From a virus: a DNA stretch of 37,022 bases. Positions 2-13,138 of the stretch are shown piece by piece; within the stretch, counting starts at the first letter, position 1; every line of letters begins with the position of its first letter. A program made the position numbers and the translations under genes. Location of the stretch: IMG/VR virus record IMGVR_UViG_3300043434_000965, positions 1 to 37,022 of that record; one strand, given 5' to 3'. The notes beneath the pieces were generated by a model, which was not told the origin of the DNA, made no database searches, and saw nothing but the letters and a program-made list of their open reading frames with translations.

Positions 2-235
2 ACAGGAGACGTTACCTCGCTAAGCCTGGTCCGCAGTTACCAGAGAGAGGTCGAGCGACAAAAGCTCATCATCAAGAAATCCGACTTTGCACAACAGCGC
101 CTTATGTTCGTCATCGGCGCACTCCGTTCTTTGTTAACCAATGAGAACTTCACGAACCTGTTACGTGCCGAGGGGTTGGACACATTGCCAACATTCCTAG
201 CTGAACGCGTATGGCCTAACGGAGTGGCTGTATGA
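2..235 (+). CDS. RepB-family ParB-like protein, C-terminal fragment (cut by window edge)
   Basis: Only the last 77 codons are present; the reading frame is open from base 2 and ends in TGA at 233-235. The fragment is helical and charged and contains LSLVRSYQREVERQKLI and a terminal LPTFLAERVW segment. It resembles the C-terminal helical part of the next protein (YKLVEESYGQDVLNLV..., ending with QPDVFSEFATIVE), so the two look like tandem paralogues of the plasmid-partition RepB C-terminal family. The stop overlaps the next start (ATGA), indicating an operon with coupled translation. Family assignment rests on this similarity and on context; the N-terminal ParB domain, if any, is outside the window. 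Confidence 0.55.
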   Translation, partial: TGDVTSLSLVRSYQREVERQKLIIKKSDFAQQRLMFVIGALRSLLTNENFTNLLRAEGLDTLPTFLAERVWPNGVAV

Positions 236-1110
236 GCCAGATTGCACTGGGGTTCATCCCCGACCCGATGACTGTCAACTTCGACAAGCTACTTCCAAGC
301 CGAAAACTGCCTGAAAACGTGGTCACTTCTAGGAAGTACAAACAGATCATCGAGTCACTACGCTCAGTCGGTCTGATTGAACCGCTGACCATCAGCCCCT
401 CGGCAAGCGATGGAACGCATGTGCTTCTTGATGGGCATACCAGGCTACTAGCCATGAAAGAACTCGGAATGACCGAGAGTCTTTGCCTCATATCCACGGA
501 TGATGAGACATACACATACAACAACCGGATAAACCGCTTATCAACAGTTCAAGAACACATGATGATCAAACGGGCAATCAACCGGGGAGTGTCACCAGAG
601 AAGTTGGCCAAAAGCCTGCATTTGGACATCGCCCACATCATGAAAAAAGTCAAACTGCTTGATGGCATATGCGCGGAAGCAGCAGAGCTTCTCCGCGATC
701 AGATGTTCTCAGCAAAGCTTAGCGATGTCTTGCGCCGTATGAAGCCGACAAGACAAGTCGAGTGTGTGGAGTTAATGATTTCAGCAAACAACATAACGAT
801 TCCATACGCTGAGGCATTGCTCGCAGCCTCCCCGTCTCATTTATTGGTTGGCGAGGTCAAGCCTAAGAAGGTTCGCGGAATCAATGCTGAGCAGATGCAC
901 AAGATGGAACGTGAGATGACCAATCTACAAGAACAGTACAAATTGGTCGAAGAATCCTATGGGCAGGATGTCCTGAACCTAGTGCTAGCAAAAGGATATC
1001 TGGTGCGTCTGCTTGAAAACAAAGCAGTGGCTAAATATATCCAGCAAAACCAACCTGATGTCTTTTCTGAATTCGCGACCATCGTTGAGACAGTCTCCAT
1101 GGACAAATGA
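232..1110 (+). CDS. ParB/RepB-like partition protein (292 aa)
   Basis: The protein is 292 aa. The N-terminal third carries a ParB/sulfiredoxin-like fold: residues 20-75 read KLLPSRKLPENV ... IIESLRSVGLIEPLTI ... VLLDGHTRLLAMKELG, with the DGHTR signature of the CTP/nucleotide-binding pocket. A central helical segment (about 105-145; VQEHMMIKRAINRGVSPEKLAKSL) is a likely helix-turn-helix. The C-terminus matches the RepB C-terminal type, with a coiled coil around 220-250. Family members segregate plasmids or, in chromosomal islands, regulate element maintenance. The start overlaps the upstream stop by 4 nt and its stop overlaps the next start. No ParA ATPase is visible, so a complete partition system is not shown here. 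Confidence 0.75.
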   Translation: MSQIALGFIPDPMTVNFDKLLPSRKLPENVVTSRKYKQIIESLRSVGLIEPLTISPSASDGTHVLLDGHTRLLAMKELGMTESLCLISTDDETYTYNNRINRLSTVQEHMMIKRAINRGVSPEKLAKSLHLDIAHIMKKVKLLDGICAEAAELLRDQMFSAKLSDVLRRMKPTRQVECVELMISANNITIPYAEALLAASPSHLLVGEVKPKKVRGINAEQMHKMEREMTNLQEQYKLVEESYGQDVLNLVLAKGYLVRLLENKAVAKYIQQNQPDVFSEFATIVETVSMDK

Positions 1111-2450
1111 TGCATACGAGCCAGAAAACTATCTCAACTTTAGAACTCTCAATTCCAAGCGAAGAGACAGATCCACACCGCAATGCACCAACTCCTGACC
1201 CGGCATGCTTATATGGCTTGGTAGGTGAAGTGGCCAGAGCTGGAAGCCAGGGCAATGAAACAAACCCCTTCGCGATAGCCACTAACTTTCTAGCGTACCT
1301 TTCATGCGCCATTGGGAGGGGCACCTTCTTACAGATTGGCAACACGGATCACCATGCAAGAATTTTTAGCCTTCATGTTGGTCGTTCAGGGCGTGGCAGA
1401 AAAGGCGACTCGCTATCCCTAGTCATCAAAATTGATGAGTGCATCCGGTCGCATTTGCCCGCGCTTTGTCCTCAGATACACCGAGGTGGGTTGTCTTCAA
1501 GAGAGGGACTTGCCGCCTTGATTCATGATGGATATGAGCAAGGCAGTAGTGAGGTACCTGGAGTAGATGACAAGCGACTTTGGGTAGTGGAATCAGAATT
1601 TGCGAATGTGCTCCAACAGTCCAGACGGAAGGGGAATACCCTATCTACAGCATTGCGCGACTGCTGGGATGGTGTATGCATCAAGCCTGCGACAAAGAAC
1701 AATCGAGTATTTGCAAGCAATCCCCATGTATGTCTGAGCGGAGCCATAACACCAAATGAATTAACAGCACTCATGTCATCTAAAGATCTGAGCAACGGAT
1801 TTGCCAATCGATTTCTGATCATTTGGGCAGAGCGAACAAAAATCACCGCATTCCCTCAAGCAACTTCTGTCAAAGAAATCGAATACCTCGCAAGTCGAAC
1901 ACAAGAAATATTGAACTTCGCAAAGGCAGAGGCGCATTCGGAAAATAACTGGCTACAAATGGAACTAAGCCCATCAGGGAAATGGCACTATGGGCAAATC
2001 TACCGTTCCGTTCTGGCGCAAGACTCAGGCAGTGAACGAATTAACGCAATTCTTGAACGCAGAGCACCTATGTTGCTGCGCCTTGCGATGGTCTTTGCGA
2101 TGTGTGACCTAAGCACGAAAATTGATGAAAAGCATCTTGAAGCCGCATTGGCATGGATCACCTTCTGTTCGGATTCCGTCAAATATGTCTTCTCAACTGC
2201 AAGTGAAGTTGCATTTACAGAGCGAGTGACGAAAAACTCCAACCTGTTGCTTCAGTATTTATCTAGCGGAGGCCAAGCTACCCGGAGTGACATCCTGCGC
2301 GAGTGCTTCAAGGGGCATTTGAGCAAGGTAGAAATTGACGCATGCTTGAATAACCTACTCAATACATCGCCGCCTCAAATTCAAGTCAGGCAATTAGCTC
2401 GCGTGGAAGGTAAGCCAGGTCCATCCGCTCATGTCTACAGCCTAGTTTGA
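1107..2450 (+). CDS. DUF3987-like P-loop ATPase/primase-helicase-like protein
   Basis: This 447-aa protein begins at an ATG overlapping the upstream TGA (ATGATG; the second ATG at 1110 is also possible). A degenerate Walker A region lies near residues 91-102 (VGRSGRGRKGDS), followed by RLWVVESEFANVLQQSRRKGNTLS, CLSGAITPNELTALM and NGFANRFLIIW. This order matches DUF3987 proteins of plasmids and islands, which resemble helicase/primase ATPases. The C-terminal 100 residues look like a winged-helix segment (LLQYLSSGGQATRSDIL). It is probably a replication or maintenance ATPase of a mobile element, co-transcribed with the two RepB-like genes. The classical GKS/T lysine is displaced (RKGDS), so activity is uncertain. 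The gene ends 200 bp before the convergent phage lysis genes. Confidence 0.65.
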   Translation: MMHTSQKTISTLELSIPSEETDPHRNAPTPDPACLYGLVGEVARAGSQGNETNPFAIATNFLAYLSCAIGRGTFLQIGNTDHHARIFSLHVGRSGRGRKGDSLSLVIKIDECIRSHLPALCPQIHRGGLSSREGLAALIHDGYEQGSSEVPGVDDKRLWVVESEFANVLQQSRRKGNTLSTALRDCWDGVCIKPATKNNRVFASNPHVCLSGAITPNELTALMSSKDLSNGFANRFLIIWAERTKITAFPQATSVKEIEYLASRTQEILNFAKAEAHSENNWLQMELSPSGKWHYGQIYRSVLAQDSGSERINAILERRAPMLLRLAMVFAMCDLSTKIDEKHLEAALAWITFCSDSVKYVFSTASEVAFTERVTKNSNLLLQYLSSGGQATRSDILRECFKGHLSKVEIDACLNNLLNTSPPQIQVRQLARVEGKPGPSAHVYSLV

Positions 2451-3147: not shown

Positions 3148-3608
3148 TTCAGACCTCCGTCAAATGAAATTAGGTTGTGTTTTTTCATTACTCCGATCAC
3201 CTTGTCCGCATAAAGCGGATCGGTGGCATAGCCAGCCTTCGCAAGTGCCCGGACAAATGCATCTGCTGTTAGGCAACTAAAGCAAGGCGCGTAGCGTTGG
3301 TTTTGCTTCAAAAAGGCTGCGTGGTCATCAATGCTGGCTTGCCAGCTTGCGTATTTGCGCCACTTGGCTGGGACAACAACCCATTGCCCCTTGATGAACT
3401 CTTTGGTTGGAAGGGTCAAGGTCTCCCCCCTCCAACGACTGTCAGCCTTGATCCCGAATAAATTGTTCCCCGTCTTGGCCAGCCCGGACTCTCCCCAGCC
3501 TGACTCGAGGGCAGCTTGTGCAATTGAGAGACTCGCGGGAACACCTGATTGCTTGGCGACCACTTGGGCCGCTTTGGCGATTTGGTCAATGAAGTCTTGA
3601 GGTTTCAA
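3144..3608 (-). CDS. Endolysin, FlgJ-type N-acetylglucosaminidase
   Basis: The protein is 154 aa and is a single glucosaminidase/mannosyl-glycoprotein endo-beta-N-acetylglucosaminidase domain. The signature SIAQAALESGWGES carries the likely catalytic Glu35, followed by GNNLFGIKAD, the Y/W-rich KWRKYASWQASIDDHAAFL and AGYATDPLYADKVIGVM. It has no signal peptide, so it should depend on the holin for release. The start is a TTG at 3608 overlapping the holin stop (TTGA), with a strong AAGGAG Shine-Dalgarno 5 nt upstream; no suitable ATG exists. It cleaves the peptidoglycan glycan strand. Confidence 0.9.
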   Translation of the reverse strand: MKPQDFIDQIAKAAQVVAKQSGVPASLSIAQAALESGWGESGLAKTGNNLFGIKADSRWRGETLTLPTKEFIKGQWVVVPAKWRKYASWQASIDDHAAFLKQNQRYAPCFSCLTADAFVRALAKAGYATDPLYADKVIGVMKKHNLISFDGGLK

Positions 3609-3988
3609 AACAACTCCTTCACATCCCTGGCCACTTCGTCGATGGTCTCATCTCTGCGTTGCTCGATGAAATTGAAAAGCCACCTCACGAGAGCCCAGCC
3701 AGGCAGTCCACAGGCAAAGATGACTCCGCCCATGGCGTACAGACCAATGGTTGAAAACGCCCAGTGGTGCAACTGGAAATACTCGACGGTGATTGCGCCA
3801 CCGCAGATGCTTGAGACGACGGTGCTGATCAGTCCCGCCGTCCATTCGCGAATGTTTCTTGGTGGGGTCATGAGCATGACAACGACCGCAGCGAGAGTTG
3901 CACCGCTGGCTGCCGCTCCCGCTGCTCCGCCAATGGCTTTGTATGCAGCTGCTGCCCCTGCGACTCCGGAGCTTGTAGGTTCTGGCAT
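3605..3988 (-). CDS. Holin-like membrane protein
   Basis: A 127-aa protein with about three hydrophobic segments: near residues 20-42 (Ala/Gly-rich, ending LAAVVVMLM), 50-70 (AGLISTVVSSICGGAITV) and 78-102 (FSTIGLYAMGGVIFACGLPGWAL). It ends in a charged tail (FIEQRRDETIDEVARDV). Size, topology and position directly before the endolysin fit a class I phage holin. ATG 3988 is preferred over an upstream GTG at 4012 because GGAG lies 7 nt before it and the GTG sits inside the terminator stem. It should form the membrane lesion that times lysis. Confidence 0.75.
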   Translation of the reverse strand: MPEPTSSGVAGAAAAYKAIGGAAGAAASGATLAAVVVMLMTPPRNIREWTAGLISTVVSSICGGAITVEYFQLHHWAFSTIGLYAMGGVIFACGLPGWALVRWLFNFIEQRRDETIDEVARDVKELF

Positions 3989-3998
3989 TGATTTCTCC

Positions 3999-4034
3999 AA
4001 AAGAAATGCCACCGTGAGCGAACTCAGGGTGGCA
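3999..4034 (-). terminator. Strong terminator between the radical SAM gene and the lysis cassette
   Basis: On the minus strand TGCCACCCTGAG and CTCACGGTGGCA form a 12-bp stem with one C-C mismatch around a UUCG loop, followed by TTTCTTTT. It lies 19 bp after the radical SAM stop and just before the holin Shine-Dalgarno. Lysis genes therefore need read-through or antitermination, or a promoter not recognised here. Confidence 0.85.
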
Positions 4035-4052: not shown

Positions 4053-5423
4053 TTAGGCCGAAACGACTGGTATTGGAAAAGGCTTCGCTTTGATCTCTTG
4101 CCGCGTTACTGGTTGGTCAGACAAACCGAAGATGTCTTTTCTGTCAGAGCGGAATTCACCCTCAATATGCACAGGGATCAAGCCCGTCAGAAACTCTATA
4201 CCTGCAGCAAAGATGGGTAACGCATCCGAGTAGGCGTTGTCACAAGATCTCTCCCAAAGCGGGCCTTCCAAGAACATGCATGCACCCTTGCATATTTGCA
4301 GCACGGGGCATTGCGGACATTCAGCACGCTTGGACCAGTGCGTTGAAGTGCGCAGCGCCACTGACGCAAGATCGCTGACGTATCCGATTCGGTGACTCTC
4401 GCCATTAGGCGCGGTTGACCGAGCACTCACGTTTTGGCAGGTCAGCACATTGCCCTTCAGGTCTACAGCGATGGAGTCAGATTTGTCCATGCCGCACTTT
4501 TGACCCAAGCTAGATGCAGGTCGATTGAATCGGATCGAATTAACGAACGACATCATGCGATCTCGCACACTGGCAATGCGAGCACTTTTGCCTTGTCTGA
4601 TGTCCTGAAACGACTGACGCCTAAAAGAGTGAAATTCATCTGACCTCAATGACAAGGCCTCACCGCCAGCGTCATAGGCGTCAACGAAACCACCTTCACC
4701 AATCATGACATTGGGATCACCGGTTAGTTCCGTGAAAAACGCCTGAATCGCAGCTCGTGACTGGTTTGATCTGTTGACCATGGCGTTGAAACTAAAACGC
4801 CCCTGAGGGGCGAGTCGTTGGTAAAGTTCAAGAATGGCTTTCTTGGTTGGAGGATCCGCCAACGGATCAGGACCACGTACATGCTGCCCGGGCCCATCGT
4901 GCGACACGGCAACAGCAAAACCCATGTCAACAAGCCATTGGTTCAAATCGGCATTGAGCAACGAGCCGTTGGTGATCACTGAAAAGCGTGCCTGCGGGTA
5001 TTTTTCGCGCAAGGCCTCAGCCAGTGGCCGCATGGTCTTGATATAGACCAGTGGCTCGCCACCCCAGAACTCGATGGCCTCGGGCGGCGAGAGAACCCAA
5101 CTATCCAGCGAGGCCATGAAACCTGTCACGTCCTCAGGATTGGTCTCATCATTGCGCTCCACGAAGCGCTGGGAGCAGTACTCGCAGGCATAGTTGCAGG
5201 ACAGGCCCAATGAAATTTTGAGGATGCGGGGTGAGGTTTTTCCAAGCGGAGCTTCCCGGGCGGTCACTGGCGCCACAGGATGTGGTGCCTGCAGAGCGGG
5301 ATCCACCGTGCGAATGACTGACAGACCCTTGAGGTCTGTCAGGCTTGAGTCCATGTTGTCATAGAGCAGTGGCACCACCATGTCATTGCGCGGGTCCAAT
5401 GCCGTGATCAGAAATTTAGCCAT
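4053..5423 (-). CDS. Radical SAM/SPASM peptide-modifying enzyme (456 aa)
   Basis: The radical SAM motif CNYACEYC gives Cys76, Cys80 and Cys83 (CxxxCxxC), which bind the 4Fe-4S cluster that cleaves S-adenosylmethionine. A GGEP motif follows at 121-124 and TNGS at 151-154. The C-terminal SPASM set is complete: Cys310, Cys329, then CPQCPVLQICKGAC (369, 372, 378, 382) and Cys394, enough for two auxiliary clusters. SPASM enzymes of this kind mature ribosomal peptides or protein side chains (for example thioether or carbon crosslinks, anSME formylglycine). The first 60 residues have no motif I recognise. The start overlaps the stop of the oxygenase gene by 8 nt (ATGGCTAA), so the two are coupled. 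The likely substrate, by context, is the Cys-rich tail fibre two genes upstream. Fold certain; substrate inferred. Confidence 0.92.
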   Translation of the reverse strand: MAKFLITALDPRNDMVVPLLYDNMDSSLTDLKGLSVIRTVDPALQAPHPVAPVTAREAPLGKTSPRILKISLGLSCNYACEYCSQRFVERNDETNPEDVTGFMASLDSWVLSPPEAIEFWGGEPLVYIKTMRPLAEALREKYPQARFSVITNGSLLNADLNQWLVDMGFAVAVSHDGPGQHVRGPDPLADPPTKKAILELYQRLAPQGRFSFNAMVNRSNQSRAAIQAFFTELTGDPNVMIGEGGFVDAYDAGGEALSLRSDEFHSFRRQSFQDIRQGKSARIASVRDRMMSFVNSIRFNRPASSLGQKCGMDKSDSIAVDLKGNVLTCQNVSARSTAPNGESHRIGYVSDLASVALRTSTHWSKRAECPQCPVLQICKGACMFLEGPLWERSCDNAYSDALPIFAAGIEFLTGLIPVHIEGEFRSDRKDIFGLSDQPVTRQEIKAKPFPIPVVSA

Positions 5424-6042
5424 CGATTCGTTCCACCTGGATGTTCAAAAGCACCTGTACAAACGGGTCGTCCCTGAGAGGGTCACCGGGATAGGGCTTT
5501 TGGAAATGAACGGCCCGGGCGTCAAAGGCCACCAGCAACCCCCTGTGAGGCTTGATCCAGTACTTGGCGTGTTGCTCCCAGGGCATCAGGCGTTTGCCAA
5601 AGCCAGATGAACGCCAGTCCGGATTGCAGATGGCAAATGCATTCGGTCCGTATTGATTGACCTGCGACTGCAGGCACTCCCCCGGATCGAGCTCCGGTCC
5701 GTTGGGGAAGTACACCGCCTGCAAATCGCACTCGTCCTCGTCCGAGTGCGGCATGATTTCCACGCCACGGGTGCGGACCACCTCGCGTCCTTGCAGACTT
5801 GTGATCAGTCCCTTCGGACCGATGAAGTCCTTTTGCAGCACGGGCAAGGCCTCTCTGGCCAGCATGGTGGCTAGTCTCACTGAGCCGTCAAAGATGTCGT
5901 GTGGCTTGCGGTCCCAAATCTCGGATCCGGTTTTCATTTGTTCATGGAGCCGCAGCAATTCCTTGCACAGGAAGTGATCAAAACTGCCACCCAGATTGAG
6001 CGCCCAGATGCCCGCCGTCGTCGGAAAGAGTTCAAGCTTCAT
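5416..6042 (-). CDS. Putative 2-oxoglutarate/Fe(II)-dependent oxygenase (208 aa)
   Basis: The sequence has an HxD...H facial triad: His99 and Asp101 in EIMPHSDEDE, and His179 in AFDARAVHFQKPYPGDP. Arg190 lies 11 residues after the distal His, where 2-oxoglutarate is bound in prolyl-hydroxylase-like enzymes. Length and predicted strand pattern (LLVAFDARAVH, PFVQVLLNIQV) fit the double-stranded beta-helix superfamily. Such enzymes hydroxylate protein side chains such as Pro, Asn or Asp. Start and stop overlap neighbours (ATGA with the upstream gene, 8 nt with radical SAM), so it belongs to the same maturation unit. Assignment is from motifs, with no close relative recognised; a non-enzymatic cupin is the alternative. 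Confidence 0.7.
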   Translation of the reverse strand: MKLELFPTTAGIWALNLGGSFDHFLCKELLRLHEQMKTGSEIWDRKPHDIFDGSVRLATMLAREALPVLQKDFIGPKGLITSLQGREVVRTRGVEIMPHSDEDECDLQAVYFPNGPELDPGECLQSQVNQYGPNAFAICNPDWRSSGFGKRLMPWEQHAKYWIKPHRGLLVAFDARAVHFQKPYPGDPLRDDPFVQVLLNIQVERIDG

Positions 6043-6896
6043 AGGAGATTCACCATCAGGTCATCGGTGCCGGAGAAATACTTGAAGCCGACCTTGATCT
6101 TGGCGTTCTCCCCCGCAACCATGCCTTCCGAACGGAAGCTTGTGGAACCCTGCCCGCCCACGGTCTTTATGCGCCGTCCCACTAGATAGCCCGCAGTTGC
6201 CTCAAGGTACACCTCTGCATTACTGTCGGTGATGGGTTCGCCCTGTGGGGTTTCCAAGCGAAATTTGATAACAACTTCATCACCAGGCAATGCATCCACT
6301 GAGGAGTCACCCACAAACCGCACTACAGGCAGCACCTCCTCGCGCACCATTGCCAGCGTGATAGCGGGTATGACATCGATGTTGGGGCTGGCTTTGATTA
6401 GAGCGGGTTCAAATACATTGAAGCCTAGGCTCCACTCCCCGATCGGGGAGGATTTGAAGGGGACCAAGATATGGCCAAGCGGGTGCGTTTGAAGGACGGA
6501 GGCGTGGTAGGCCTGTGCATCCATCTTTGAAGCAAGCGTTGCTACGTAAAGGTTGGGAGTCTGAGCGTAAAAACCCTCTGGCGTGTTGTATCGTTCCATC
6601 AGACCAACGGGGGCGTACAACATGAAGCTTGCGTGATCAGAAAACTCAGGGTGTTGCTGCAGTGTCTGCAGATCGATCGAGCGCTTATAAATTGACTCGC
6701 CAAACACGCCAAAGTCACCTCGCCACTCAGTGATCAGTTTCTCGTCAAAATACTTTCCGCCGTTTGAATGTGTGTTGTTAGGGCTTCCTACGAACTCGCG
6801 CTGCATGATTGGACGAACGCTGTATGAAAGTATTGAGCCTTCAAGCGCGACATCTAAAGCAAACGGCGGGTTTTTATTACCTGTGAAGAGTTTCAT
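6039..6896 (-). CDS. Fibre-associated protein with C-terminal Ig-like domain (285 aa)
   Basis: No family is recognised for residues 1-190. Residues about 200-285 (DALPGDEVVIKFRLETPQG ... VYLEATAGYLVG ... TSFRSEGMVAGENAKIKVGF) have the alternating-strand pattern of a bacterial Ig-like (invasin/Big-type) domain. Start choice: the first in-frame ATG (6902) touches the AGGA, whereas ATG 6896 has AGGA 6 nt upstream and is preferred. It lies between the Cys-rich fibre and the oxygenase, coupled to the latter by ATGA. It could be a structural fibre subunit, a fibre chaperone in the position usually held by tail-fibre-assembly genes, or a substrate-presenting partner of the two enzymes. Confidence 0.6.
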   Translation of the reverse strand: MKLFTGNKNPPFALDVALEGSILSYSVRPIMQREFVGSPNNTHSNGGKYFDEKLITEWRGDFGVFGESIYKRSIDLQTLQQHPEFSDHASFMLYAPVGLMERYNTPEGFYAQTPNLYVATLASKMDAQAYHASVLQTHPLGHILVPFKSSPIGEWSLGFNVFEPALIKASPNIDVIPAITLAMVREEVLPVVRFVGDSSVDALPGDEVVIKFRLETPQGEPITDSNAEVYLEATAGYLVGRRIKTVGGQGSTSFRSEGMVAGENAKIKVGFKYFSGTDDLMVNLL

Positions 6897-6905
6897 GCCC
6901 ATTCC

Positions 6906-7868
6906 TTAGCAACAGTTGCAATCGCAATTGCAGTTGTATCGAGTGGTCTGTGAGCCAAAGCTGATGGTTGAACCACCGTCATTCAATCGCAGCATGTAGA
7001 TTCCGGAGTTGGAAGGTTGATCGCCACAGTTGTAATAGTCACTTGTATTGGCCGTGCAGTTTGGTGCACCTTGCCATCCTGAACTGGGGTTGTAGCTTCT
7101 GAAGCAGTTGCTGACCGCATTGAAGAAATAGTCATGCAGCCAACCGTAGTTCGCAGTCCACATGGAGCCGCCGTTGTTCATGTACATGTCCCAGTTGCCG
7201 TCGGACTTTAAAAAGCCCATCAAGTTGCTGTTGACATGCAAATAGCGGGTCACGTTGTCCGTGTCCTGCATATTGATGGTCGGAGCAGTGTTCTGAATAG
7301 TCAGATTCCCCGTCATCGTGTCACCGGTCTTGGCGACTCGGCTGGACAGGTCTATGTTGACCGTCGCATTGCCAGCGGCATCTGGTCCGGCACCGTTGAC
7401 GGACCTCACAAACGCAGTGGAGTCATAACCATCGAGCTTGTCGGCGTCGGCGGCCTTGGCGGTGATGCCGAGGTAGGCGGTGTTGTGGTTGTGCGCGCTA
7501 GAGGCAAATGCGCTCGCATGTTGGCCATCGAGCAAGTCAGCGTCGAGCCCAGTGCCTGCACCATCAACGGTCAGCAGCTTTGCCAAGACATCGGCTGCCG
7601 TGTAGCTCGCAGCGTTGAGCTTGGCGGCGAACTGCGTATCGATGCCGCTCGCCAAGTCCAAGATGAAGCGCCAGTTGTCGGGGCTGGTGCCGATCAACTG
7701 GTAGAGCTTCAACTGATCCGTGCGGTAGCACAGCATTCCGATTTGCAGGTTCGTCGTCGGGAAGGTGGTGCCGCTGTTGCATGAGATAGCTGTCTTGTCG
7801 TTGTTCAGAATTTGAGACAACGAGTCCGAGAGCGTCGAGGATGAAGGTATTTCGGTGTAGTTTTGCAT
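6906..7868 (-). CDS. Tail fibre protein with Asn/Asp-Cys repeat C-terminus (320 aa)
   Basis: The start ATG 7868 has GAGAG just upstream. Residues 1-70 hold a short conserved phage motif (IGMLCYRTDQLKLYQLIG). Residues 100-155 carry fibre-type repeats (DADLLDGQHASAF, ADKLDGYDSTAF), and 180-245 read KTGDTMTGNLTI and WDMYMNNGGSMW, typical of trimeric tail fibres. The last 70 residues are unusual: Cys255, 271, 281, 313, 315, 317 and 319 each directly follow Asn or Asp, and the chain ends YNCNCDCNCC. Two other cysteines (30, 47) do not follow this rule. It is the first gene of a block ending in an oxygenase and a radical SAM enzyme, which makes this tail a candidate substrate. Metal binding or disulfides at the fibre tip are alternatives. 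Confidence 0.85.
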   Translation of the reverse strand: MQNYTEIPSSSTLSDSLSQILNNDKTAISCNSGTTFPTTNLQIGMLCYRTDQLKLYQLIGTSPDNWRFILDLASGIDTQFAAKLNAASYTAADVLAKLLTVDGAGTGLDADLLDGQHASAFASSAHNHNTAYLGITAKAADADKLDGYDSTAFVRSVNGAGPDAAGNATVNIDLSSRVAKTGDTMTGNLTIQNTAPTINMQDTDNVTRYLHVNSNLMGFLKSDGNWDMYMNNGGSMWTANYGWLHDYFFNAVSNCFRSYNPSSGWQGAPNCTANTSDYYNCGDQPSNSGIYMLRLNDGGSTISFGSQTTRYNCNCDCNCC

Positions 7869-9610: not shown

Positions 9611-12600
9611 TCAATAAAGCTTGAGTGCGGTGTAGCCCGCTGTAGGTGTCATTGCGCTACTAGCGCTTTGCACATCCCCACCCATCTTTCCGATAAAGAG
9701 CCTGCGCTCTGTCGCGGTTTGACACACCCCAACGCAAATGCGATCATTCACATTGACGGGGTATGGAACTTGGATGCGATTGAACAGGTGGTCTTCAAGG
9801 AAAAACACCTGGTTCGTTGCGTCATACCCGACACACAAACTCACGCCTACACCTGTCGCACTCCAGATCACCGATGTGGTGACTTGATTGGGGATGAACC
9901 AAAAGCTCACATGGAACACGCCCGGTATCCGAACCCCCCATGACACTTTGGTCGTGTCTTTGATCAAGACGCCAGTCCCGTAGCGACCATCTCCGTAGCT
10001 CACGCCTGAGGCATCCCCACTTGTAGGACTGCCGTAGCCGCTGAGCACCCCGTTGAGGCGCCACCCATAAATTTCGCCTGCCTGTAATGTGTCTTCACGC
10101 GAAATTTGAAATCGCGCCTCAATGCTCTTGAGCGCCCCGTCATAGGTCCATTGACGTTTGGCCGCTTGGCTGTTCCACGCATAGTTGGCCGTGCTCCATG
10201 TTTCGCGGTCATCCAGCGTTGCACCAATGCTGGCCAACAAAGTGTTCTGCGCCCGGTAACTGGTCGGAAGGTTCACTTCGAACAGATATTCAGACTGGCT
10301 CACGCCGCTGTCCATGCGAAGCACATCGAGGCTGTTGACGGACTCCACAGATGCAAAGTGCTTGATTCCCGGAAACCTTGTCGCTTGCGCATCCATGGTC
10401 ACCAGTAGGTTGGCGTTTTGCGGCTGGGCCACCACCGTTGAGACAAACGTGGCTTCGTCCGAGTAGATGCCAGGAGAAGCAATCGCCTTGATCCAGAACT
10501 TGCGCTCACCATCGAAGCCCGATGGCAAGGTGTAGCTACTGGACTTCACCTCTGCAATGAAGATAGAGGTGTCCCAGGCTCCCCCTTCCCTGAGCTCATA
10601 AGCCACAACCTCAGGCTCTGGGTTGGGAAGCCAACGAAACTCCAGACGGTTGGCAGACTGGACCACATCAAACTGCCTCACCGACGATGGGGCCAGCAAG
10701 ATCAGCTGAAAAGTCGTGACATGCGTGCTGTACTTGCCCGAGGTATCAAACGCACGGATGAAGTAGTTGTACTGACCAGATTCACTTTGGTCATGAACAA
10801 GCTGCGTGCCTGCGGTTTGGCCAACCAATACTCCGGAGTCCCAGCCGCTACCTACTCGAACCTCATAACCCGCCAAGTCAGCATCTGTGTTGGCTGCCCA
10901 CTTGAGAAGCAAGTCAGTCGTTCGGCGATACACAAGGAAATCTTGCACATCGTCTGGGGGCTGCAATTTGCCAAGGATGGTTTGACTAAGCGTTGCGCCG
11001 TTACTAAGTTTTCCTGAAACGCCAACGGCTTTGACCGTGAAGACATAGTCTCCAGTTTCGGCATTGCGAATTTCCAGATAACTGGTGGTCACACGAGGCA
11101 AGGTGATGGTGTTGCCGCCATTGACCCGATAGCTCACCTGATACTCAAGCGCACCAAAGACCTGCTCCCACGCCACCTGAATCAATACGAGCGCTTGATC
11201 CTTGACCCGATACAGGCTCTCAGACACCTTCAAGCCTGTTGGCGTTGCAGGGGTGGTCGACAGCACCGTGATGTCACGAGGTTGCAGCGCCAAGCCCTGC
11301 TCAATCGCAGCGTACTTGCTTGGGTTGTGCGCAAGGGCTGTCACCTCATGGATGCCCGGCTCACTCTCAGCAACTTGCACCACCCGGAAGAGCTGTGCCT
11401 CGACCTGACTTGAGGCCAAGACCCAAATCGCCCCCGGTTGAGGTGCCGCAGAAAACGGACTGGTCACACCAAGTGTTCGACCGCTGAACGATCCAACTTG
11501 TCGTTCTTCCACCGTGCCAGCTGGCGTGATGACTGAAATTAGCCACGAACCTGCAGGCGGGTCTTGGTCAAGGGTCACGGTCACACTCGTAGCCGCTGCA
11601 ATGCGCCCACCGAGTCGCAATCCTCCACGGCTCGAGTCTGCCACTTTGATGACGTCACCTGGACGCACCACCGCACCTTCAAGCCCCGTGCGAAACGTGA
11701 TGATTTCCGACTCAGACTGCTCTGAGTAGAGCAACCACTTACCAACTCGGTTAGCCTGACCTCGGGAAGTGCATCCCATGGCCAGAACATCAGCTTGCAC
11801 CACCCCGTAGCGGGCAATGCCGTCGACATCCTCAACGTATTCCACCTTCTGACGGTAAAAGTCGTCCGGGTCAATCCAACTCACCAACGCCACAGTGTGA
11901 CGCGCTTTGGCAGACGAGCCTTGATACGAGAAGTCCCCATCGATGACGTTGGCAGCCGTGAATTGATAGACCGCATCTTGCGGTGCATCTTGGGTCACGG
12001 TGATGGCACCACCAGACCAATACGCCATGCCCCTGAAGATCGAGGCCATGTCCTGCACGACCTTGTAAGCCTGCTCTCTTGTCTGGAGATACAGGTTACA
12101 GGTGAACCGAGGCTCGTAGCTTCCTAACCCGTTAGGCACCAATTCATCGCAATATCGAGCCACGCGATACAGAGCCCACTTGTCGACCTGTGCCTCTGGG
12201 ATGTAGTTGCCCAGCCCATATCGTGTGCTTGTCACAAGGTCATAAAAACACCACGCGGGGTTGTCCGTCCATGCGACTTTGAACGTGCCATCCCACACGT
12301 CCGAATATGAGCGCGTTTCGGGATAGTAGTTAGACGGTATGCGAACCCGAAGCAGCTTCAAGTCATAACTGCGCTTCGGGATAGAACTGAACTGCGAGGC
12401 ATCAACGCGCAATGCCATCAAGGCGCTGTTTGGGTAGCGAAGTTTGCTCTCAATGACTTCGGTGTAGGACTCCAGAAATGTCTTGTTCTGGATGTTGGTC
12501 TTGGTTGAGTCCTCTGTGATGCGACGCAACCGCACATCCCATGGTGCAGAACCATTGAGTGGGATGTAGTAGCTGCGTTGGTATTTGGTGGTGGTTTTTC

Positions 12601-13138
12601 CCGAAACCGAGTCAGCCACCACCTGCGAATAACCACCGCCGTTGCTTTGCACATCGATCGCAAAGTCCACGGTTGTGCCACTCAAGTCGCCATTGGTAGC
12701 GTCTTGATAGGTCAGCGCCGGAAAACTGATCTTGATACGAACAGCGTCCACATCCGGATCGGTGATGGCGCGAACGACAGGCTGATTGAACTTGCACTCA
12801 ACACCCACAGCCACCTCGTTCTCAACCGATGAGAAACCGGGGATGTAGCTTTGCTGTTGCGTTCCGTTGCGAGTTTCTAGCGTTACGCCCGCGAAGTTGT
12901 AGCTGCCATCGGCATTTTGAATGGCCGTGTCGTCCAGATAGACCGACTTCAGGCCATTGGCCAGCCCTTGGATTTCACCCTCGCACACCAAGTCCACCAC
13001 GCGAGCGAAGGCTTTGGAGCGCAGGCTATCGGGGGCCTCTTGTGCAACTCGTGCGCTGCCTCCGCCACCTTTGCCGCCACCGCCTGCACCAATGATGAGT
13101 GAAGGTTGGCTTATAGATTCGGTGATCAATTCACTCAT
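9611..13138 (-). CDS. J: Tail tip/host-specificity protein, lambda J family (1175 aa)
   Basis: The N-terminal GGGGKGGGGSARVAQEAPDSL and SKAFARVVDLVCEGEIQGL segments open the classical J-family tip-attachment region. AWCFYDLVTSTRYGLGNYI and ARYCDELVPNG mark the conserved phage-tail tip domain. Fibronectin type III-like repeats lie around residues 620-900 (TPATPTGLKVSES, YQVSYRVNGG, KLQPPDDVQDFLVYR). The last 200 residues (IEARFQISREDTLQAG, GVFHVSFWFIPNQ, RLFIGKMGGDV) look like a LamG/concanavalin-type lectin domain, likely the receptor-binding end. The start overlaps the stop of the I-like gene. Length is close to lambda J. It forms the tail tip and chooses the receptor. Confidence 0.92.
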   Translation of the reverse strand: MSELITESISQPSLIIGAGGGGKGGGGSARVAQEAPDSLRSKAFARVVDLVCEGEIQGLANGLKSVYLDDTAIQNADGSYNFAGVTLETRNGTQQQSYIPGFSSVENEVAVGVECKFNQPVVRAITDPDVDAVRIKISFPALTYQDATNGDLSGTTVDFAIDVQSNGGGYSQVVADSVSGKTTTKYQRSYYIPLNGSAPWDVRLRRITEDSTKTNIQNKTFLESYTEVIESKLRYPNSALMALRVDASQFSSIPKRSYDLKLLRVRIPSNYYPETRSYSDVWDGTFKVAWTDNPAWCFYDLVTSTRYGLGNYIPEAQVDKWALYRVARYCDELVPNGLGSYEPRFTCNLYLQTREQAYKVVQDMASIFRGMAYWSGGAITVTQDAPQDAVYQFTAANVIDGDFSYQGSSAKARHTVALVSWIDPDDFYRQKVEYVEDVDGIARYGVVQADVLAMGCTSRGQANRVGKWLLYSEQSESEIITFRTGLEGAVVRPGDVIKVADSSRGGLRLGGRIAAATSVTVTLDQDPPAGSWLISVITPAGTVEERQVGSFSGRTLGVTSPFSAAPQPGAIWVLASSQVEAQLFRVVQVAESEPGIHEVTALAHNPSKYAAIEQGLALQPRDITVLSTTPATPTGLKVSESLYRVKDQALVLIQVAWEQVFGALEYQVSYRVNGGNTITLPRVTTSYLEIRNAETGDYVFTVKAVGVSGKLSNGATLSQTILGKLQPPDDVQDFLVYRRTTDLLLKWAANTDADLAGYEVRVGSGWDSGVLVGQTAGTQLVHDQSESGQYNYFIRAFDTSGKYSTHVTTFQLILLAPSSVRQFDVVQSANRLEFRWLPNPEPEVVAYELREGGAWDTSIFIAEVKSSSYTLPSGFDGERKFWIKAIASPGIYSDEATFVSTVVAQPQNANLLVTMDAQATRFPGIKHFASVESVNSLDVLRMDSGVSQSEYLFEVNLPTSYRAQNTLLASIGATLDDRETWSTANYAWNSQAAKRQWTYDGALKSIEARFQISREDTLQAGEIYGWRLNGVLSGYGSPTSGDASGVSYGDGRYGTGVLIKDTTKVSWGVRIPGVFHVSFWFIPNQVTTSVIWSATGVGVSLCVGYDATNQVFFLEDHLFNRIQVPYPVNVNDRICVGVCQTATERRLFIGKMGGDVQSASSAMTPTAGYTALKLY
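10169..10198. repeat. 30-bp near-repeat, copy 2 (in J homologue)
   Basis: Partner of 8995-9024 with four differences by eye. It encodes WSTANYAWNS just before the lectin-like C-terminal domain of the J homologue. Confidence 0.6.

Follow-up and report, generated by a model that had tools for sequence, protein, structure and literature searches.

Gene organization of the fibre locus

The window analyzed here, the whole stretch of viral DNA at its full length of 37,022 nucleotides, carries a fibre gene that sits after the J tail-tip gene (9611-13138), with the gene order J, g148, g396 and fibre. The fibre product matches tail-fibre families phrog_7389 (1.4e-10) and phrog_19602 (5e-8), and downstream of it, joined by start/stop overlaps, lie g287, a 2OG-oxygenase-like gene and, as the third gene after the fibre, a radical-SAM/SPASM gene (Table 1). 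The next listed gene, g135, may be part of the tail/lysis region rather than of this cassette. At the left end of the window (232-2450, plus strand) we noted a RepB/ParB-like partition gene and a DUF3987 gene; judging from these, the phage may have a plasmid-like state.

Table 1. Features of the fibre locus, in positions of the window
Feature	Position	Strand	Evidence or remarks
Tail fibre gene (320 aa) bearing the [ND]C tip and tail	6906..7868	minus	tail-fibre PHROGs, best 1.4e-10
Alternating tail YNCNCDCNCC, residues 311-320	6909..6938	minus	predicted modification site
Variable tip domain, about residues 248-310	6939..7127	minus	NC at 255, 271 and 281
Cassette partner g287	6039..6902	minus	N-terminal part without match, C-terminal Ig-like domain
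2OG-Fe(II)-oxygenase-like protein	5416..6042	minus	auxiliary, variable, sometimes missing; H99, H179 and R86 conserved
Radical SAM/SPASM maturase	4053..5423	minus	CxxxCxxC C76/C80/C83; SPASM Cys 310, 329, 369, 372, 378, 382, 394
g135	3605..4012	minus	phrog_1024; conserved after the radical-SAM gene in many relatives

Translation of the fibre gene gives a C-terminal end of RYNCNCDCNCC. The first-pass annotation had claimed that Asn or Asp precedes seven of the eight C-terminal cysteines, that the remaining cysteines of the protein break this rule and that chance placement is very unlikely, and its counts and coordinates proved correct on re-translation. Asn precedes Cys255, Cys271, Cys281, Cys313, Cys315 and Cys319, Asp precedes Cys317, and Cys320 follows another cysteine, whereas Cys30 and Cys47 follow Ser and Leu. 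Shuffling of the last 70 residues produced seven or more [ND]C dipeptides at a frequency of 1.5e-5, in line with composition-based binomial values of 5e-5 to 8e-5 for their enrichment. The NC-tail pattern occurs only once in the window.

Composition and conservation of the cysteine tail

Across 80 related loci from viral contigs, the alternating tail terminates nearly every full-length fibre homologue, with examples such as NCNCDCNCC, NCNCNCACDCCC, NCNCNCNCDCYC and NCNCNCNCCGC, and long forms containing at least 12 cysteines. Repeat number, which the annotation had marked for checking, does vary, from a minimal NCRCNC up to ACNCNCNCGSYTNCNCGNTAFNCRTNCNCNCACCGCC. Most tails end the fibre and have no visible leader. 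The NC stretch is not terminal in a few loci, an example being L170, where it is internal to the reading frame and about 170 residues lie beyond it.

For 65 distinct tails, we counted which residue precedes each cysteine in the 12 C-terminal positions; the tails were chosen for their cysteine density and their position upstream of a radical-SAM gene, without use of the [ND]C rule. Asn preceded 195 of the 336 cysteines, followed by Ala (38), Asp (30), Cys (28), Arg (13) and Gly (11); a few chance open reading frames are among the 65, so Asn is, if anything, under-counted. The proposed rule is real, and the homologues do not keep their cysteines while leaving the preceding residue free, but its wording as Asn or Asp was too strict: Ala is no rarer than Asp, and there are also cases of Cys, Arg and Gly. 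The true invariant is the (XC)n alternation, with a spacer that is far more often Asn than Ala or Asp.

Purifying selection on the tail is strong and acts at the protein level, with a pN/pS of 0.095 in the tail versus 0.53 in the 20 codons just upstream, and tail codons that vary freely. A DNA-level repeat is ruled out, since the codons vary under a conserved protein sequence and no second copy of the pattern occurs in the window; an N-glycosylation sequon of the N-X-C type is likewise ruled out because, in NCNC, the N+2 residue is Asn. The tip preceding the tail is different in kind among phages with a common fibre base, and is exchanged between phages along with the tail and the downstream cassette.

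Linkage between the tail and the radical-SAM/SPASM gene

An unbiased DNA scan of viral contigs for CNCNCNC yielded records that we divided according to whether the pattern formed the C-terminal tail of a protein or stood elsewhere; the 32 tail records exclude those from already known fibre and enzyme loci. The radical-SAM family was present in 31 of the 32 tail records (E values from 1e-31 to 1e-199) and in none of 39 control records with the pattern elsewhere (Fisher p 2.5e-19), although these counts and those of the other linkage sets overstate independence because related contigs are counted repeatedly, even if the tails sit on non-homologous proteins (unrelated fibres and short tandem proteins). 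The sole miss is a 5.5-kb fragment with a tail identical to that of locus L157. When tail and enzyme lay in one stretch, they were on the same strand in 26 of 27 cases, with the enzyme downstream in 25 of 27 (median 0.9 kb). For the reverse sample, comprising 69 loci found by the enzyme alone, an open reading frame with an [ND]C tail was located upstream in 62; of the other seven, re-examination showed L107, L133 and L116 to be truncated or fragmentary contigs, L123, L148 and L145 to have a short tail (NCRCNC among them) or one of the Ala type, and L146 to have a Hint-type fibre.

The J gene provided a further sample, in which 39 of 40 loci with enough downstream sequence had both tail and enzyme and one had neither. 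This exception, L434, keeps J, g148, g396 and the fibre base with an unrelated tip. As a natural tail-less case (L434:15367-20128), it is without the radical-SAM gene and g287, and several 2OG-like genes and a fatty-acid desaturase are kept downstream. Among 54 loci, similarity of the tip and tail tracks enzyme similarity once the fibre N-terminus is controlled for (partial r 0.59, permutation p 5e-4; 0.32 for the fibre N-terminus in the same comparison), a correlation to which physical closeness contributes.

Two arrangements at individual loci were also observed. In L118 (7624-8555) and L121 (8011-9090), three short tandem open reading frames, each with its own NC tail, precede one radical-SAM gene, which resembles a set of multiple RiPP precursors. 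In Polynucleobacter necessarius and its prophage (L364, L144), the radical-SAM gene is in several broken frames and an interruption splits the tail (NCNCDRNCGC), which looks like a joint decay of the two.

The first-pass annotation had read the cysteine pattern in three ways: as a recognition unit for modification, as a metal site at the fibre tip, or as a disulfide-stapled knot. The tight linkage of the radical-SAM/SPASM gene to the tail strongly supports the first of these, and it makes it very likely that this enzyme acts on the tail. For the metal site, alternating cysteines of three fibre chains would bind metal along the axis, in a manner like that of HxH tips or metallothionein, and the radical-SAM gene would serve some other end. 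This is improbable: the metallothionein-like endings CXCXCXCC and NCCGCC and the published HxH iron-binding fibre tips (PMC11705849) fit it, but the near-obligate adjoining radical-SAM/SPASM gene and the strong preference for an Asn spacer are left unexplained. Metal binding by three chains may nonetheless be a further end state of the tip, or another one in its place. Barely credible is the knot, that is, ordinary disulfides formed within or between chains after assembly; cysteines spaced as CXC are badly placed for disulfides within a chain, a radical-SAM enzyme would not be needed, and there is no linked thiol-disulfide isomerase among the cassette genes examined, for all that the tail is cysteine-rich, variable in cysteine number and at work outside the cell. 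Metal or disulfides may yet be the final state of the tail, but neither would alone account for the linked enzyme.

Breadth and Hint-domain variants

The link between tail and enzyme includes prophages of named bacteria. Bacterial genomes with both were found in Limnohabitans, Polynucleobacter, Burkholderia, Paraburkholderia, Rhodobacteraceae, Halomonas, Magnetospirillum, Rhodoplanes and others, while among 50,697 phage records a near-full-length enzyme relative was present only in Achromobacter phages JWF and 2-1. In these two phages, the tail NCNCDCNCNCS (or NCNCDCNCS) abuts CFPAGT, the start of a Hint domain, and loci of Burkholderia paludis and Halomonas have the same order, with the first Hint cysteine abutting the tail. 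In JWF the tail-bearing protein is gp028, and the radical-SAM gene is gp030. An NC or cysteine-rich tail followed by a Hint domain of the hedgehog/intein type at the fibre C-terminus was seen in L270 (6844-8295, phage JWF), L271, L326, L372 and L146. Self-cleavage of the Hint domain at the abutting cysteine would, as far as these sequences suggest, expose the tail as a new C-terminus, as in the window.

Features of the radical-SAM/SPASM enzyme

The enzyme scores above the cut-offs of both the Radical_SAM profile (PF04055, 1.8e-7; 32.0 against 29.5) and the SPASM profile (TIGR04085; 32.0 against 27). Among 43 sequences, the three CxxxCxxC cysteines are invariant, as are the SPASM cysteines listed in Table 1 up to C378, with C382 and C394 kept in at least 90%. 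The best NCBIfam match is the PapB ranthipeptide maturase (2.6e-16) and the third is QhpD (1.2e-13), and all 43 relatives match PapB along with several other peptide maturases. The window enzyme reaches 59.8 bits against the PapB equivalog cut-off of 340 (NF047865) and falls far short of every other equivalog cut-off, so its reaction is not readable from its family. An AlphaFold2 model (pLDDT 91.7) had CteB as its best structural match (Z 23.8, 342-362 residues), followed by ChlB and anSME (Z 20-22), with anSME at Z 20.4 and the epimerase EpeE at Z 12.9; this fold leaves the reaction unfixed.

A search of a plasmid collection for relatives of the enzyme returned none. Several loci have two or more radical-SAM genes (L131, L132, L128 and L380, and also the records of L157, L162 and L171), in tandem or in the same record near the tail protein. 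One relative, in L345 (3317-7686), lies beside ABC-exporter-like genes and is apparently cellular rather than from a phage.

Given its nearest relatives and the cysteine content of the tail, the chance that the product is a thioether is about even. PapB requires an Asp or Glu carboxylate partner, within a Cys-X3-Asp/Glu motif (PMC9413430). Against a thioether by the PapB route, the spacer in the window family is mainly Asn or Ala, and a bond between an adjacent Asn and Cys would be strained, so the partner would have to lie further away or on another chain. Sactionine-type bonds, which are made to the alpha carbon, need no carboxylate; since PapB depends on one and the usual spacer here is Asn or Ala, the enzyme may form a sactionine-type bond or carry out another radical reaction such as epimerisation.

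Other radical chemistry on the tail could take the form of alpha-carbon epimerisation, giving a strand of alternating L and D residues as in proteusins, or of conversion of cysteine to formylglycine by an enzyme of the anaerobic sulfatase-maturase type. Strict alternation fits the L/D strand, anSME and EpeE are among the structural matches, and the phage JWF enzyme is annotated as an 'anaerobic sulfatase-maturating enzyme'. We nonetheless consider such chemistry rather unlikely, as the best matches are CteB by structure, a thioether former, and PapB in NCBIfam (though the fold does not fix the reaction), and the CxPxR-type sulfatase-maturase site is absent from the tails of the loci read.

Partner genes of the cassette

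Searches of g287 against Pfam, NCBIfam and PHROGs gave no match, and its structural model resembles known proteins only in a common C-terminal Ig-like domain, as found in intimin, invasin-type proteins and the phage Chi neck protein. The gene is missing where the tail is missing (L434).

For the 2OG-oxygenase-like protein, H99 and H179 of the metal triad (HxD/E...H) are invariant in 40 relatives, with HxD in P0003 and HxE/HxD or HxH-like forms in others. The window protein joins a variable family by iterated profile, other members of which match PF13759; by itself it matched no Pfam family, and a sequence search of solved structures found no match. Its gene lies between the fibre and the radical-SAM gene in the window and in most J-based loci, and this position, together with the fact that Asn/Asp beta-hydroxylases are 2OG enzymes, would suit a reading in which it is the main tail modifier, hydroxylating Asn or Asp with the [ND] rule as its recognition site. 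That role is very unlikely, since phages JWF and 2-1 and locus L380 do not have the gene, and 2OG-like genes occur in L434 without a tail or a radical-SAM gene. The same absence from JWF and 2-1 and presence in tail-less L434 rule out the oxygenase as a constant partner and mark it as accessory. In L102 (2755-6513), two desaturase-like and several 2OG-like genes were found between the tail protein and the radical-SAM gene.

A probable radical-SAM-matured fibre tip

We think it likely that the tail is a RiPP-like substrate borne on the fibre tip and modified by the radical-SAM enzyme, with a thioether as the leading candidate product and with the 2OG protein and the Ig-like partner assisting. 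Gene linkage supplies the arrangement of a RiPP system, in which a modifying enzyme is encoded alongside a ribosomal precursor that bears a core segment. The [ND]C tail would be the substrate, or core, of a dedicated maturation system, carried C-terminally on the fibre in the way that a RiPP precursor carries its core, and the radical-SAM/SPASM enzyme would modify XCXCXC, most likely by thioether cross-links from cysteine to the backbone or to a side chain, with interleaved Asn, Asp or Ala or neighbouring fibre chains as partners. A second modification by the 2OG oxygenase may follow in many phages, and the Ig-like g287 may aid or cap the tip. The resulting receptor-binding tip would be stiff and would withstand redox change and proteases; its position at the fibre end makes a role in adsorption reasonably likely. 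The phage thus probably has dedicated chemistry for rewiring the part of the fibre that touches the host.

On a broader view, we lean slightly toward a mobile cassette, comprising the variable tip, the [N/D/A]C tail, the Ig-like partner, an optional 2OG gene and the radical-SAM/SPASM gene, that numerous phages infecting freshwater and marine bacteria carry. Its enzymes would cross-link the receptor-binding tip in a RiPP-like manner, the cassette would pass between phages as one piece to give them a different tip, and the result would be the first known class of radical-matured virion adhesin. In the open-access literature we found no description of a fibre tail matured by a radical-SAM/SPASM enzyme; a study of pelagimyophages reported radical-SAM cassettes in the host-recognition cluster, unlinked there to fibres (PMC7029224). 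The class of chemistry is known, and the substrate and setting appear new: radical-SAM maturation is known for small peptides that are secreted and for a handful of enzyme subunits. In the present case, very many viral contigs, and prophages of named bacteria as well, seem to have it coupled to the fibre end that binds the receptor. If so, part of the adhesin of some phages is made by chemistry that follows translation, a step that both sequence-based host-range prediction and heterologous fibre expression overlook. These enzymes would also form a new family acting on a substrate of very simple, repetitive make-up, and the two isolated phages, JWF and 2-1, allow testing.

Comparison with known systems

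The PapA/PapB system, which makes the ranthipeptide freyrasin, similarly has a cysteine-rich ribosomal substrate adjoining a radical-SAM/SPASM enzyme, but in the window the putative substrate is a fibre protein some 300 residues long instead of a short leader-bearing peptide, and its family motif is (N/D/A-C)n, with X mainly Asn, in place of Cys-X3-Asp/Glu. For the CteA/CteB pair, which produces a SCIFF thioether peptide, CteB is the closest fold and aligns from model residue 1 on, yet identity is only 16-17% and the SCIFF spacing is absent. QhpD, the third NCBIfam match, is a radical-SAM/SPASM enzyme that links cysteine to Asp or Glu by thioethers inside a protein subunit during maturation of quinohemoprotein amine dehydrogenase; its QhpC-type substrate is a subunit of a bacterial enzyme, not a virion adhesin. 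Fibre tips of the T4 gp37 type have HxH iron sites (PMC11705849) and share with the window fibre an alternation, at the tip, of residues able to bind metal, although these are His there and Cys with Asn here, and no maturase is known to be needed for them. The closest counterpart in arrangement is the Hom_end_hint protein of Achromobacter phage JWF, which has the same cassette and the same kind of tail (NCNCDCNCNCS) directly before its Hint domain; there the tail would be freed by self-cleavage of the Hint domain, whereas in the window it directly meets the stop codon.
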